Assembly: GCF_003696205.1 (NCBI RefSeq)
Contig: NZ_RFFI01000004.1
Coordinates: 1 to 64,000 of the forward strand
Direction of reading: 5' to 3'
DNA from: Cellulomonas triticagri
GTDB lineage: Bacteria > Actinomycetota > Actinomycetes > Actinomycetales > Cellulomonadaceae
DNA: 64,000 nucleotides
The notes under the pieces: model-generated
Database searches by the model: none
Seen by the model: the letters and a program-made list of their open reading frames with translations, nothing else
Told to the model about the DNA's origin: nothing
In this document: positions 6,575 to 64,000 of the stretch, in pieces
Numbering within the stretch: position 1 is the stretch's first letter
Layout of the letters: each line of letters starts with the position of its first letter
Position numbers and translations under genes: made by a program

Positions 6575-7271
6575 GGAAGCCGAGGGTGCGCGCCGCGTCC
6601 TCGGGGCGGGGCTGCGACGCCCAGTGCGCACCGAGGTCGTCGGTGGCGGCGAGCGATCGGGTGTGCGCGCGGTCCAGGTACAGCGTGCCGTTCAGGTGGT
6701 CGGTCTCGTGCTGCACGATCCGCGCGGGCCACCCGGTGACGACCTCGTCCAGGGCGGTCCCGTGCTCGTCCTGCCCGGTGAGCCGCAGGCGGCGCAGGCG
6801 CGGCACGACCGCCTGGTACCCGACGACGCTGAGGCAGCCCTCGTAGAACGACACCTGCTCGACCGGCTCGTCGGGGACGGGTGCGTAGTGCGGGTTGACC
6901 AGCACCCGGAACGGCATCGCGGGCCGCTCGCGGACCTCGCCGTGCTCGGTGCCCTCGGCGCCGGGGTCGGCGAGCACCGTGAGGGCGAGCGGCAGCCCGA
7001 CCTGCGGGGCGGCGAGGCCCACGCCGGGCGCGGCGTGCATGGTGCGGCGCATCAGCGCGACCAGCGCGGTGAGCTCGGCGTCGTCCACCTGCCCGTCGAA
7101 CGGCACCGCGCGCAGGCGCAGCGCCGGGTGCCCGGCCTGCACGATCGGGACCGTGCCGGACGGGTCGGCCGCGGCGGTGTCGATCAGCCGCAGCACGTGC
7201 TCGCGGACGACCGCCGCGGGCCACGTCGCGCGCGGCGCGAGCGGCGAGGGGTCGTCGTGGTCGGCTGCCAC
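6564..7271 (-). CDS. def: Peptide deformylase
   Basis: A 235-residue deformylase that removes the N-formyl group from new proteins. All three metal-site motifs are intact: GVGLAAPQ (residues 83-90), EGCLS (144-148) and QHETDH (187-192), giving the Cys and two His metal ligands and the catalytic Glu. It has an N-terminal extension of about 40 residues compared with short deformylases. The GTG at 7271 lies 11 bp after the glmM stop, with GAGGGGCGG upstream, so it is read as the second gene of a glmM-def unit. Confidence 0.95.
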   Translation of the reverse strand: MAADHDDPSPLAPRATWPAAVVREHVLRLIDTAAADPSGTVPIVQAGHPALRLRAVPFDGQVDDAELTALVALMRRTMHAAPGVGLAAPQVGLPLALTVLADPGAEGTEHGEVRERPAMPFRVLVNPHYAPVPDEPVEQVSFYEGCLSVVGYQAVVPRLRRLRLTGQDEHGTALDEVVTGWPARIVQHETDHLNGTLYLDRAHTRSLAATDDLGAHWASQPRPEDAARTLGFPLA

Positions 7272-44052: not shown

Positions 44053-44113
44053 GGTGCACGAGACACGTCGCCGGTGCCCTCAGCGCGGGCACCGGCGACG
44101 TGTCTCGTGCACC
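44053..44113. repeat. 27-7-27 palindromic element, copy 1
   Basis: Perfect 27-bp arms (44053-44079 and 44087-44113) with a 7-nt loop. Outer part GGTGCACGAGACACGTC is shared with copies 2 and 3; the inner 10 bp differ but still pair. It lies exactly 7 nt past both convergent stops (actP and the AbiEi-like gene), so it should act as a bidirectional terminator. Confidence 0.9.
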
Positions 44114-45084: not shown

Positions 45085-45110
45085 GGTTGGCTTGCGAGCG
45101 GTCCGCCCCG

Positions 45111-45171
45111 GGTGCACGAGACACGTCGGGGGTGCCCCCAGTGAGGGCACCCCCGACGTGTCTCGTGCACC
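45111..45171. repeat. 27-7-27 palindromic element, copy 2
   Basis: Perfect arms 45111-45137 and 45145-45171 with a 7-nt loop and the same outer GGTGCACGAGACACGTC. It begins 4 nt after the chemoreceptor stop at 45176 in the direction of transcription, fitting a terminator. Confidence 0.9.
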
Positions 45172-45175
45172 TGGG

Positions 45176-59382: not shown

Positions 59383-59433
59383 CGGTGGGCGCGGGTTATA
59401 CGGGGTCGCGGGCACAGGCCAGCGCAAAGCGCT

Positions 59434-59462
59434 AGCGTAGTCCAGGACTGGCCGGAAGTCCA
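59434..59462 (-). promoter_or_regulatory. rpoBC promoter
   Basis: Minus strand -35 TGGACT (59457-59462), a 17-bp spacer and -10 TACGCT (59434-59439). It predicts a leader of about 140 nt. It lies downstream of the three hairpins after rplL. Confidence 0.6.
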
Positions 59463-59555
59463 GCGGGCGTGCTATGGCGCACGCCGCACCCGCTGCGCCG
59501 CCCGCCGCCCCCTCCCCCGCGCGCACTCCTGCGCGGCGCCGACCCCCGCGCCGAG

Positions 59556-59616
59556 GGTGCACGAGACACGTCCGGAGTGCCCGCAGCGGGGGCACCCCGG
59601 ACGTGTCTCGTGCACC
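59556..59616. repeat. 27-7-27 palindromic element, copy 3
   Basis: Arms 59556-59582 and 59590-59616 with a 7-nt loop and the shared outer GGTGCACGAGACACGTC. One position is an A-C mismatch on the plus strand but becomes G-U in minus-strand RNA, so folding is preserved only for transcripts coming from rplL. Confidence 0.88.
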
Positions 59617-59635
59617 TACGCGAGCCGGGCACAGC

Positions 59636-59669
59636 GCAGGCCCGCACCCCCGAGGGGGTGCGGGCCTGC
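59636..59669 (-). terminator. Hairpin 2 after rplL
   Basis: Perfect 16-bp arms 59636-59651 and 59654-59669 with only GA between them, 52 nt after the rplL stop. Confidence 0.75.
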
Positions 59670-59681
59670 GCTTGAGGCGTC

Positions 59682-59714
59682 CCGGGTCTCAGCGCGCTAG
59701 TGCGCTGAGCCCGG
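59682..59714 (-). terminator. Hairpin 1 after rplL
   Basis: CTCAGCGC (59688-59695) pairs with GCGCTGAG (59702-59709), extended by CCGGG (59682-59686) with CCCGG (59710-59714) past one bulged base. It begins 6 nt after the rplL stop. Confidence 0.65.
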
Positions 59715-59720
59715 AGCGGG

Positions 59721-60113
59721 TCACTTGAGGGTGACGGTGGCGCCGGCGCCCTCGAGGGCGGCCTTCGCCTTGTCCGCGGCGTCCTTCGCGACGTTCTCGA
59801 GGACGGGCTTCGGGGCGCCGTCGACGAGGTCCTTGGCCTCCTTCAGGCCGAGGGAGGTCAGGGCGCGCACCTCCTTGATGACCTGGATCTTCTTGTCACC
59901 AGCGGCCTCGAGGATGACGTCGAACTCCGACTTCTCCTCCTCGGCGGCACCGGCGTCACCGGCACCGCCGGCGGGGGCGGCGACGGCCACGGCGGCCGGG
60001 GCCGCGGCGGTGACCTCGAAGACGTCCTCGAACGCCTTCACGAACTCGGAGAGCTCGATGAGGGTGAGGCCCTTGAACTGCTCGATGAGCTCGTCGGTGG
60101 TGAGCTTCGCCAT
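59721..60113 (-). CDS. rplL: 50S ribosomal protein L7/L12
   Basis: A 130-residue stalk protein that recruits GTPase factors: N-terminal dimerisation [20 protein letters not shown], an Ala/Gly hinge near residues 37-57, and the C-terminal domain with [20 protein letters not shown]. The ATG at 60113 is by homology; an upstream in-frame reading is leader. Confidence 0.98.
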
Positions 60114-60194
60114 GATGGCGGTTCCTTCCGTTCGGTCCGCGCCGGTCACGTCGACCAGGCGGGGCAGTGTGGGGAGCGCTGGAGCCGGGGTGGC

Positions 60195-60725
60195 TCAGGC
60201 AGCGGTGTCGGCAGTCTCCTGCTTGGCCCGCAGGGCCTCGACGGTGCGCACAGCCTGAGAGGCGGGCGCGGTGAAGAGGTAAGCCGCCTGGAACAGCTTG
60301 GCCTTCATCGCACCGGCCGCCTTGGCCAGCAGGACCTCGCGGGACTCGAGGTCCGCGAGCTTGGTGACCTCCGCAGCGGTCAGGGCGCGCCCGTCGAGGA
60401 CACCACCCTTGATGACCAGTGCGGGGTTCGCCTTGGCGAAGTCACGCAGACCCTTGGCCGCCTCGACCGGGTCACCGGTGACGAAGGCGATCGCGGACGG
60501 GCCCTTGAGCTCGTCGGAGATCCCCTCGATCCCGGCTTCCTTGGCCGCGATGGCGGTCAGCGTGTTCTTCACCACGGCGTAGTTCGCGTTGCCGCTGAGC
60601 GACCGACGCAGCGTCTTGAGCTGCGCGACGGTGAGCCCGCGGTACTCGGTCAGCACGGCCGCGTTCGACTCGCGGAACTGGTCCGCGAGCTCTGCGACAG
60701 CGGCTGCCTTGTCCGGCCTCGCCAT
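60195..60725 (-). CDS. rplJ: 50S ribosomal protein L10
   Basis: A 176-residue stalk base: [38 protein letters not shown] and [27 protein letters not shown] precedes the ATG. It is followed 81 bp later by rplL. The usual upstream genes rplK-rplA are not here; a FAD/Fe-S oxidase gene occupies that side. Confidence 0.98.
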
Positions 60726-60956
60726 GGCAATCCTTCCGAATGGTGGTGCCGCCGGTCGTCGTCCTCGACCCCGAACACGAGAAGAGCCCCGGCGCCGGCG
60801 CCGGGGCTCGCGGGACGCACGCTGTCGCGTGCCACCATCGAACTTCGTCACCTGCGCGGGTCTCCGCCGGAGCGGGACTTCGGGCGGCCCCTGGACGCGC
60901 CCCGCGGAGGCGGGACGAGCACGGGAGCCGACGACCTGCGGTCTTGGGCAGCGACC
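60726..60956 (-). promoter_or_regulatory. rplJ leader (L10 leader-like)
   Basis: About 225 nt of leader. It contains a perfect 24-bp palindrome (AGCCCCGGCGCC at 60785-60796 with its complement at 60797-60808) followed in the RNA by CUCUUCUCG, like an attenuator. Autogenous control by L10/L12 is known for this operon in other bacteria; here it is inferred. Confidence 0.5.
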
Positions 60957-60986
60957 AGACTACGGCACGGTCGCCACGATCCCCAA
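60957..60986 (-). promoter_or_regulatory. rplJ-rplL promoter
   Basis: Minus strand -35 TTGGGG (60981-60986), an 18-bp spacer and -10 TAGTCT (60957-60962). Confidence 0.55.
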
Positions 60987-61038
60987 ATCCGCCCGGGCCC
61001 CGGCGCATGCCCGGCATCCGGGGGCCGCGCCGGAGGCC

Positions 61039-61105
61039 GAGGTCGTCACACGCGGACGAGGCCGTCACATCGGATGTGACGACCTCGTCGACGAGTGACG
61101 ACCTC
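61039..61105. repeat. Symmetric four-half-site palindrome
   Basis: Half-sites GAGGTCGTCAC (61039-61049), GAGGCCGTCAC (61058-61068), GTGACGACCTC (61076-61086) and GTGACGACCTC (61095-61105) are symmetric about 61072. Each arm has two copies 19 bp apart. It lies between the oxidoreductase stop and the rplJ promoter; either a terminator or a tandem operator. Confidence 0.6.
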
Positions 61106-61160
61106 GCCGCACGGGCCGACGCACCGCCGCCCGGGCCGTCGCACCGCCGCACGTGCGCAC
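61105..61160. repeat. Tandem 20-bp repeat after the oxidoreductase gene
   Basis: Two 20-bp units beginning CGCCGC and ending CGCAC (61105-61124 and 61125-61144), 18 of 20 identical, plus a partial third (61145-61160). Directly downstream of the oxidoreductase stop. Confidence 0.55.
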
Positions 61161-61166
61161 CGCGTC

Positions 61167-64000
61167 CTACAAGCGCGCCGCCAGGAGCTCCGCGAGGTGC
61201 ACGCCCTGGACCCCGGCGAGCTGGTCGGCCTGGGTGCGGCACGAGTACCCGTCGGCGAGGAAGACGTCCCCCGGGGCGGCGTCCCGCAGCGCGGGCAGCA
61301 GCGCGTGCTCGGCGACCTGCACGGACACGTCGTAGTGCCCCTTCTCCATGCCGAAGTTCCCCGCCAGGCCGCAGCAGCCCGCGAGCGTCGAGAACGACGC
61401 CCCGGCGTCGCGCAGCAGCGCCTGGTCCGGGGTGTACGTCATCACCGCGTGGTGGTGGCAGTGCGGCTGCACGACGGCCGTCACGTCGGAGAGGTCCGGC
61501 GGGGTCCACCGCTCCCCCGGCCCGATCGGCGCGGGCGCCGTGAGCAGCTCGGCGAGCGTCCGGGTCGCGCGGGCGACCGCGACGGCGCGCGGGTCGTCGG
61601 GCAGCAGGTCGAGCAGGTCGGAGCGCAGCACCGCGGTGCAGGACGGCTCCAGGCCCACGATCGGCACGCCGTTGACGGCGTACGGGCCGAGCACCTCGAG
61701 CAGGTGGGTGAGGCGCTTGCGGGCCCCGTCGAGCTGACCGGTGGAGATCCAGGTCAGGCCGCAGCAGGCGTCGTGGTCGGGGACGACCACCTCGTACCCG
61801 GCGTCCCGGAGCACCCGGACGGCGGCCACGGGGATGGACGGGGCGAGCGCGTCGCTGAACGAGTCCGTCCACAGCAGCACCGGCGGACGCCCCGACGTCC
61901 CGGAGACCGACAGCGTCGTGCCGTCGGAGGTCGCCGGACGCCCCCCGGGGACGTGCCCGCGCCGGACGTCGACCTCGCCCCGGCGCACCCGCGACCGGAA
62001 CGGCGCCGGGGAGAAGTCGACCATCTTCCGCCGGGTGTCCATGCCGCCGAGCCGGAGCACGACCTTCGCCAGCGGGCGCACGCCGAGCACGGCGTTCGCG
62101 ACCCGCGCGAGGCCGGGGATGCCGGTGACCAGGCGCGTCCAGCGGGGCAGCCAGCCGAGGGCGTAGTGGTTCACGGGGCGCAGCCGACCCCGGTACGTCT
62201 GGTGCAGGGCCTCGGCCTTGTACTGCGCCATGTCGACGCCGGCCGGGCAGTCCGAGGAGCACGCCTTGCAGGACAGGCAGAGGTCGAGGGCCTCGTGCAC
62301 CTCCGGGGAGGACCAGCCGCGCGACACCAGCGTGCCGTTGGCCATCTCCTGCAGCACGCGCGCCCGGCCCCGGGTGCTGTCCTTCTCGTCGCGGGTCGCG
62401 AGGTAGGACGGGCACATGAACCCGCCCGCGGCCGAGGAGTCGGCGCGGCACTTGCCGACGCCCACGCACCGGTGCACGGCCGTGGTGAAGTCCCCGCCGT
62501 CGTGCTCGAACGCGAAGCCGCCGCGGGACGCGGGCAGCGGGTGCGCGTGCGGTCGGCGCAGGTCCGCGTCCAGCGGGCGCGGGCGGACCAGCACGCCGGG
62601 GTTGAGCAGGTCGTCGGGGTCGAGCAGGTCCTTGAACGCGCCGAACGCGGCGATGGCCCGCTCGGAGTACATGACCGGCAGCAGCTCGGAGCGGGCCCGC
62701 CCGTCGCCGTGCTCGCCGGACAGCGAGCCGCCGTGCGACGCGACCAGGTGCGCGGCGTCCGTCATGAACGCGCGCAGCGGGTCGCCGGAGCGCTCCATGG
62801 GCACGTCGAGCCGCAGGTGCACGCAGCCGTCGCCGAAGTGCCCGTACGCGAGGCCGTCGACGCCGTGCGTGGCCATGAGGGCCTCGAGGTCGCGCAGGTA
62901 CGCGCCCAGCCGCTCGGGCGGCACGGCGGAGTCCTCGAACCCGGGCCAGGCCTGCTCGCCGGACGGGGTGCGGCCGCCGAGCCCGGCGCCGTCCTCGCGG
63001 ATCCGCCACATCGCGGCGGCCTCGGGGCCGGGCGGGAACACGCCGACCGCGCGGGTCCCGGCGTCGGCGGCGAGCGCGTGCGCGCGCTCCAGCGCCTCGT
63101 CCAGGGTGTCGCCGCCGACCTCGACCATCATCCAGCCCGCGCCCTCGGGCAGCGGCGGCACGGCCGCGGCGCCCTTGACGCGGCGGACGACGTCGACCAG
63201 GCGGGCGTCCATGCCCTCGATGGCGAGCGGCCGGTGGGCGAGCAGCGCGGGGACGGCGTCCGCGGCGGTCGCCATGTCCGGGTAGCCGAGCACGACCAGC
63301 ACCGGCGCGGCGGACACCGGCACCAGCCGCACGGTCGCGCCGAGCAGCGTCACCACGGTGCCCTCGGTGCCGACCAGGGCCTTGGCGAGGTCGGCGCCGT
63401 TCTCCGGCAGCAGGTGCTCCAGCGAGTACCCGGACACCTGCCGCCCGAACCGGCCGAGCTCGGTGCGCAGCGTCGCCATCTCGGCCCGCACCAGCGCGTC
63501 CAGGCCCGGCACGGGGTCGAGGCCCTTGCCGGCGGTGAACCGGCGGCCGCGGCCGTCGACCACGTCGAGCTCCAGCACGTTGTCCGCCGTGCGTCCGTAC
63601 GCCACCGCGCGCGGCCCGCAGGCGTTGTTGCCGATCATGCCGCCGAGGGTCGCGCGCGCCTGGGTCGACGGGTCCGGGCCGAACCGCAGGCCGTGCGGCG
63701 CGGCCTCGCGCTGCAGCGCGGCCATCACCACGCCCGGGTCGACGCGCGCGGTGCGGGCCTCCGGGTCGATCTCCCGCACCCGGTTCACGTGCCGCGACCA
63801 GTCGAGGACGACGCCGGTGCCGACGGCGTTGCCCGCCACGGACGTGCCGCCACCGCGGGACGTCACGGGCGTGCCGAGCCCGCGGGCGACCTCCAGGGCC
63901 GCGAGGGCGTCGTCCACGTCGCGCGGGAACACCACGACGGACGGGACGACGCGGTAGTTGGACGCGTCGGTGGAGTACTCGGCGCGGCGGCGGGTCGAGT
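61167..64000 (-). CDS. FAD-linked oxidase / Fe-S fusion dehydrogenase (GlcD-GlcF type), 5' end missing
   Basis: At least 944 residues; the reading frame continues past the right edge (EYSTDASNYRVVPS is visible upstream of 63935). Order: a vanillyl-oxidase-type FAD domain (PVTSRGGGTSVAGNAVGTG, GGMIGNNACGPRAVAYG), FAD-oxidase C domain, ferredoxin-like centre 1 (Cys in CVGVGKC and MCPSY, 62410-62490), centre 2 (CLSCKACSSDCPAG, 62240-62290), then two CCG domains (CCGLTW near 61760, CCGLAGNFGMEKGHYD near 61350). This matches D-lactate or D-2-hydroxyglutarate dehydrogenases of the YdiJ type. Substrate inferred only. Confidence 0.9.
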   Translation of the reverse strand, partial: STRRRAEYSTDASNYRVVPSVVVFPRDVDDALAALEVARGLGTPVTSRGGGTSVAGNAVGTGVVLDWSRHVNRVREIDPEARTARVDPGVVMAALQREAAPHGLRFGPDPSTQARATLGGMIGNNACGPRAVAYGRTADNVLELDVVDGRGRRFTAGKGLDPVPGLDALVRAEMATLRTELGRFGRQVSGYSLEHLLPENGADLAKALVGTEGTVVTLLGATVRLVPVSAAPVLVVLGYPDMATAADAVPALLAHRPLAIEGMDARLVDVVRRVKGAAAVPPLPEGAGWMMVEVGGDTLDEALERAHALAADAGTRAVGVFPPGPEAAAMWRIREDGAGLGGRTPSGEQAWPGFEDSAVPPERLGAYLRDLEALMATHGVDGLAYGHFGDGCVHLRLDVPMERSGDPLRAFMTDAAHLVASHGGSLSGEHGDGRARSELLPVMYSERAIAAFGAFKDLLDPDDLLNPGVLVRPRPLDADLRRPHAHPLPASRGGFAFEHDGGDFTTAVHRCVGVGKCRADSSAAGGFMCPSYLATRDEKDSTRGRARVLQEMANGTLVSRGWSSPEVHEALDLCLSCKACSSDCPAGVDMAQYKAEALHQTYRGRLRPVNHYALGWLPRWTRLVTGIPGLARVANAVLGVRPLAKVVLRLGGMDTRRKMVDFSPAPFRSRVRRGEVDVRRGHVPGGRPATSDGTTLSVSGTSGRPPVLLWTDSFSDALAPSIPVAAVRVLRDAGYEVVVPDHDACCGLTWISTGQLDGARKRLTHLLEVLGPYAVNGVPIVGLEPSCTAVLRSDLLDLLPDDPRAVAVARATRTLAELLTAPAPIGPGERWTPPDLSDVTAVVQPHCHHHAVMTYTPDQALLRDAGASFSTLAGCCGLAGNFGMEKGHYDVSVQVAEHALLPALRDAAPGDVFLADGYSCRTQADQLAGVQGVHLAELLAARL

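Follow-up and report, generated by a model that had tools for sequence, protein, structure and literature searches.

The window, i.e., the whole stretch of 64,000 nucleotides of Cellulomonas triticagri that was analyzed (contig NZ_RFFI01000004.1, positions 1 to 64,000), carries a 69-bp palindrome at 61038-61106, between the 3′ end of a FAD-oxidase gene and the rplJ operon, with both neighbors on the minus strand. Four half-sites CGAGGTCGTCAC make it up: a pair of direct copies, the second of which differs at a single position, and then a pair of inverted ones. Their starts lie 19, 23, and 19 bp apart, and the arrangement is perfectly centred on 61072. The features, with their basis, are:

61038-61106, no strand: whole quadruple half-site element, 69 bp (sequence; covariance-model R2 matches on both strands at 61038-61106)
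61038-61049, plus strand: half-site 1, CGAGGTCGTCAC (sequence)
61050-61056, no strand: outer spacer, 7 bp, letters free within the family (sequence; family alignment and spacer test)
61057-61068, plus strand: half-site 2, CGAGGCCGTCAC, one change (sequence)
61069-61075, no strand: centre, ATCGGAT (sequence)
61076-61087, minus strand: half-site 3, inverted, reading GTGACGACCTCG on the plus strand (sequence)
61088-61094, no strand: outer spacer, 7 bp (sequence)
61095-61106, minus strand: half-site 4, inverted, reading GTGACGACCTCG on the plus strand (sequence)
61167-63935, minus strand: FAD-linked oxidase with 4Fe-4S domains, its gene end 60 bp before the element (protein-family scan)
60195-60725, minus strand: rplJ (ribosomal protein L10), its start 312 bp beyond the element

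The first-pass annotation had described four 11-bp half-sites, three exact and one with a single change, centred on 61072, and its coordinates and count are correct (GAGGTCGTCAC at 61039-61049, GAGGCCGTCAC at 61058-61068, and GTGACGACCTC at 61076-61086 and again at 61095-61105). The true repeat unit is 12 bp (CGAGGTCGTCAC), hence the element boundaries at 61038-61106. The 19-bp repeat reported for each arm is likewise real, being the period at which the unit recurs, with the inner half-site starts 23 bp apart. The same annotation placed the spacing near two helical turns, which does not hold: B-DNA has ~10.5 bp per turn, and 19 bp corresponds to ~1.8 turns. A search of the window returned one further exact 11-mer, at 6736, and no second quadruple. 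The quadruple architecture was seen once in the window and in none of 60 order-3 Markov copies of the window; a looser architecture accepting any half-site was seen twice in 30 Markov copies.

Other hairpins lie in the window. A second family, of long perfect hairpins with GTGCACGAGACACGTC arms, is represented five times in the 4.39 Mb genome, and the window contains three of these copies (44053-44113, 45107-45175, and 59556-59616); in the rplL-rpoB gap such a hairpin is found in C. triticagri and in genome G030, i.e., in 2 of 30 loci scanned (two loci being incomplete). A GC-rich hairpin at 59632-59673 lies directly 3′ of rplL, and 28 of the 30 scanned loci carry, at about this place, a stem of at least 17 bp whose sequence changes; of the remaining two, one is an incomplete locus.

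Family size and distribution

The window palindrome is one copy of a dispersed intergenic family located at gene ends, and not a private operator of rplJ. Covariance model R2 returned 73 strand-wise matches up to E = 1 in the C. triticagri genome. Considering the 33 places with matches at E ≤ 0.01, and excluding two without the architecture (C88 and C272), left 31 aligned copies common in architecture. These copies split into a TCAC type and a GGGGAAC type, and some are mixed (e.g., G000:C12, with the outer pair of one type and the inner pair of the other). Model R3 returned matches in 49 of 81 Cellulomonas genomes (E ≤ 0.001, at most 62 candidates scored per genome) and in 22 of 297 genomes of the order, representing 12 of 94 genera including Cellulomonas (E ≤ 1e-6, with 17 candidates per genome scored). 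Of 17 remote or distant examples examined, most retain the geometry with different half-sites. A match in Nocardioides albus was rejected as a family member, being a single inverted pair and no quadruple. Other occurrences, whose absence was to have told against the first-pass reading, are many, both in the same genome and in relatives. The exact 11-mer makes a poor probe when used by itself: the genome has 64 copies of it, of which, by our own count, 20 lie within quadruple elements. Word searches of open-access papers, judged from the result listings, turned up no account of elements of this kind in Cellulomonas or its order.

Core, spacing, and arrays

Across 119 elements from four genomes, each arm combines a near-invariant core (~11 bp) with a variable stretch after it. 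The putative recognition site is CGAG(G/A/T)TCG plus three to four subfamily-specific letters, and the half-site types seen are CGAGGTCGTCA, TGAGGTCGTCAC, CGAGATCGGTG, CGAGTTCGGCA, and CGAGGTCGGGG, and every one of the four genomes carries two of them. Each type has its own geometry (19/22/19; 19/23/19; or 19 on one side and 20 on the other, with 22) and is retained in 115 of the 119 elements. Because the element detector took only spacings of 18-20 and 21-24 bp, we ran an open spacing search with gaps of 2-32 allowed. Its counts cover the places listed for genomes G012 and G058 (150 direct and 75 inverted pairs): the spacing was 19 in 53 of 100 and 30 of 50 direct pairs (83 of 150 together), and 22 in 38 of 50 and 20 of 25 inverted pairs (58 of 75 together), for G012 and G058, respectively.

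In three genomes, 74 of 93 arrays were two-and-two and the remaining 19 were all unequal, up to six against two; at least three units stood on one side in 15 of the 93 and on both sides in none, with one-and-one hairpins left out and with some outer units carrying a mismatch and possibly due to chance. A match at 1501-1565 of locus L335 (G124, another genus of the same family) belongs to a longer array built from a related unit, CGAGGTAGGCAAC..., that seems to extend to either side of the centre; this counts against the pattern of one-sided extension.

Conservation of cores and drift of spacers

For G058 and G063, we compared eight pairs of orthologous elements of the same type; a ninth such row was set aside, being a second partner of an element already counted. 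Core positions differed at 6 of 352 and other positions at 18 of 193 (P = 8e-5), a contrast tilted somewhat toward conserved cores because both copies had to be detected. Between paralogues, the outer spacers differ by 41%. Within subfamilies, spacers showed no pairing covariation (540 matches against 537.1 expected; here and in the other within-subfamily tests, 116 of the 119 elements were used, a group of three being excluded). Taken together, the ortholog, paralogue, and covariation comparisons indicate that the core is kept and that the spacer letters are free, with spacer length constrained. C-G exchanges make up 52% of spacer substitutions, and frequent C/G swaps of this kind could have pointed to shape readout; we rejected this idea, as C-G transversions also make up 67% of the 2247 substitutions in the flanks of G058 and G063. 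Such a background must be allowed for in any covariation test in the genus.

When types were pooled, 86.3% of cells were paired, against 77.1% after shuffling. This pooled covariation is largely a type effect, since within types core agreement was positive for every pairing, being highest for the nested pairs (z = 4.0 and 4.1) and lower for the other pairings (z = 1.4-3.0). Where core arms disagreed, nested symmetry was kept in 17 cases and broken in 1 (164 elements), which is an upper estimate because the models reward pairing; both element sets behind the nested-pairing results were found with such models. The family's core letters and exact spacing appear to be under selective protection, which suggests that some cellular factor recognizes the element at gene ends.

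Placement at gene ends and fold

Elements were placed relative to genes called with our own simple codon-score gene finder rather than a standard annotator. Of the 119 copies in four genomes, 112 lie in gaps with both flanks called; 4 inside a called gene and 3 with one flank missing were excluded from the placement counts. The 112 gaps comprise 56 convergent, 52 tandem, and 4 divergent ones, at least one gene is followed by the element in 108 of 112, and the median distance to the nearest stop codon is 34 nt. Other gaps of at least 100 bp in the same loci comprised 7 convergent, 49 tandem, and 36 divergent ones (convergent vs. divergent, P = 2.6e-16), a background biased by the choice of loci for containing the element. 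In a second set of 30 elements from other genomes, the 26 with both flanks called fell into 9 convergent, 15 tandem, and 2 divergent gaps, and 24 of the 26 follow a gene.

Ten proteins were scanned, including eight near other copies and the window oxidase. Besides the oxidase, they were a uracil-DNA glycosylase, BioY, an ABC ATPase, a sigma factor, an acylphosphatase, a transporter component, a TetR regulator, a class II aldolase, and one protein without a family. A copy made autonomous by its own transposase was considered and rejected, the ORFs scanned near copies being ordinary genes.

The folded strand is far more stable than its shuffles on both strands (z = -6.9 to -9.9), as would be the case for any palindrome. 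As in a classical intrinsic terminator, the stem-loop comes shortly after a stop codon. No T-run follows the stem of the window element, and at least four T in the next 10 nt were present at only 1 of 164 directed ends. Promoter and terminator scans of the element region returned no match, and an Rfam search of 59400-61500 gave ten matches up to E = 1, none overlapping the element. In tandem settings, G.U mismatches favored the sense strand, 39 to 19 (P = 0.012), and in the second set only 10 to 9, so that the asymmetry was not accepted as proof of RNA function; the sense strand of the flanks is itself richer in T than in A (450 vs. 351).

Turnover and copying

A match to rplJ was found in 76 genomes, and 41 of these loci were examined, 3 of them without an anchor match. 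Not one of the 37 relatives scanned has the element there, and in 12 of them the same end of the oxidase gene is visibly retained. A given gene end may differ in subfamily between sister species: among 16 G063 elements with both flanks matching a G058 element, 8 were of the same type and 8 of a different type. Of the 8 that differ in type, four (G063_11, 12, 13, and 14) either lie close to a second element or align poorly with their surroundings, and for a fifth (G063_9) one partner keeps a possible remnant half-site; part of the difference may thus be explained by the loss of one of two neighbors. Recent copying is indicated in G012, where 13 of the 50 centres listed are identical, and nearest paralogues are slightly closer than shuffled ones.

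Candidate explanations

The explanation that we prefer, tentatively, is a REP/BIME-like gene-end element with four putative protein sites, helping to end or insulate transcription. Just downstream of genes, a host DNA-binding protein would recognize the four sites in duplex form, two opposite two, and the resulting complex, whether or not a transcript hairpin contributes, would block or insulate transcription between neighboring genes; the window copy would separate the FAD-oxidase gene from the rplJ operon. We infer the protein, its binding to duplex DNA, and the termination or insulation as follows: the conserved core, constant spacing, freely varying spacers, and unequal arrays point to a protein on the duplex more than to a bare hairpin, and location together with fold suggests a role in ending or insulating transcription. 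Conserved half-sites, fixed spacing, and free spacer sequence are also what is expected of a multi-site protein operator on duplex DNA. Four observations run counter to the protein model, namely the nested pairing of cores, the seemingly two-sided L335 array, the identical centres in G012, and a period of 19 bp that does not make whole turns, and the few neighbor proteins scanned included no binding protein for the element. We rank this explanation above a plain RNA hairpin, and the hairpin above a selfish palindrome, with weights assigned by judgement.

A transcribed hairpin acting without any dedicated DNA-binding protein, as a stem-loop that either terminates transcripts arriving from both sides with no need of a U-run or shields the 3′ ends of mRNAs, is our second choice and a rather unlikely one. 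It would account for the location after stop codons, the very stable fold of both strands, the core changes that keep nested symmetry, and the sense-strand bias of tandem G.U mismatches in the first set, and a poly-U run is reportedly unnecessary for intrinsic termination according to a study of 13 genomes (PMC8355165). However, that bias nearly vanishes in the second set and the flanks have a T excess of their own, the spacers keep their length without pairing covariation, the core is conserved in its letters and not merely in its pairing, and arrays of six against two cannot pair fully. The first-pass claim that the element is more than a simple hairpin is supported by the conserved core, the fixed spacing, the free spacers without covariation, the one-sided extra units, and the lack of a T-run. 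Third in rank, and improbable in our judgement, is a selfish REP-like palindrome spread by some enzyme and tolerated at gene ends, with core and spacing reflecting what the enzyme requires. Presence/absence differences at the rplJ locus, the subfamily differences between sister species at shared gene ends, the many identical G012 centres, and the closeness of nearest paralogues would fit such spread, but retention of the core at single loci between species is not expected of dead copies, and the ORFs near copies are ordinary genes. Moreover, in a search restricted to one transposase family, the RAYT domain (Y1_Tnp, PF01797) was found in 1 of 81 genomes, not that of C. triticagri, and in 5 of 14 controls.

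Least probable by far is a specific operator at which a cooperating pair of dimers would regulate either rplJ or the oxidase gene. The element does sit between the two genes, but it stands at the end and not at the start of the oxidase gene, other copies come after unrelated genes, and it is not kept upstream of rplJ in any of the relatives scanned (0 of 37), so that an operator of the rplJ operon was rejected. The earlier interpretation keeps its sequence-specific sites at a fixed distance and loses its connection to rplJ.

A further proposal, which we regard as doubtful, is a protein-dependent gene-end system in Cellulomonas and other Actinomycetes. Dedicated DNA-binding proteins, with specificities diverging between and within species as the half-site subfamilies do, would occupy four sites, fixed in geometry and located after genes, where they would serve as road-block terminators or insulators; over short evolutionary times, a gene end would swap one specificity for another. 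Each genome studied has two or more putative specificities, and some gene ends have one type in one species and another in its sister. Short palindromes downstream of genes have been described chiefly in other phyla, and what they do is still under debate. A family that keeps core and geometry at single loci while its spacers drift helps to separate a selected site from a selfish repeat.

Comparison with known systems

Binding by gyrase or other host proteins is one criterion for REPs and BIMEs. In the broad sense, the family resembles them as a dispersed, multi-copy intergenic palindrome (31 copies) located mainly after genes (108 of 112 and 24 of 26). REPs, including the GTAG- and CGTC-tagged super-families, share the placement after genes and the coexistence of subfamilies, and CGTC REPs occur without a dedicated transposase (PMC3733652); the available text of that paper contains neither "Actinobacteria" nor "Cellulomonas". 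The likeness covers dispersed intergenic palindromes in dozens of copies, mostly after genes in tandem or convergent gaps, with several subfamilies per genome. In contrast, REPs are single hairpins of 20-40 bp (PMC3733652), whereas here four half-sites stand at a fixed 19/22(23)/19 bp, the Cellulomonas subfamilies share no tag, and the RAYT domain is missing in 80 of 81 genomes. No GTAG or CGTC tag was found at an unpaired end: the element ends are the paired CGAG/CTCG core, and CGTC was found only inside the paired core of TCA types. Because tag and RAYT features are lacking, we call the element REP-like, and not a member of the tagged super-families. It also resembles REPINs with their RAYTs (PMC3116915), in that both consist of short, inversely paired repeats present many times per genome, but here no RAYT was found in the element's own genome. 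With intrinsic terminators lacking a U-run, it shares a stable GC-rich stem-loop shortly after stop codons (PMC8355165), and it differs from them in having a conserved core in four arms, fixed spacing, and unequal arrays.
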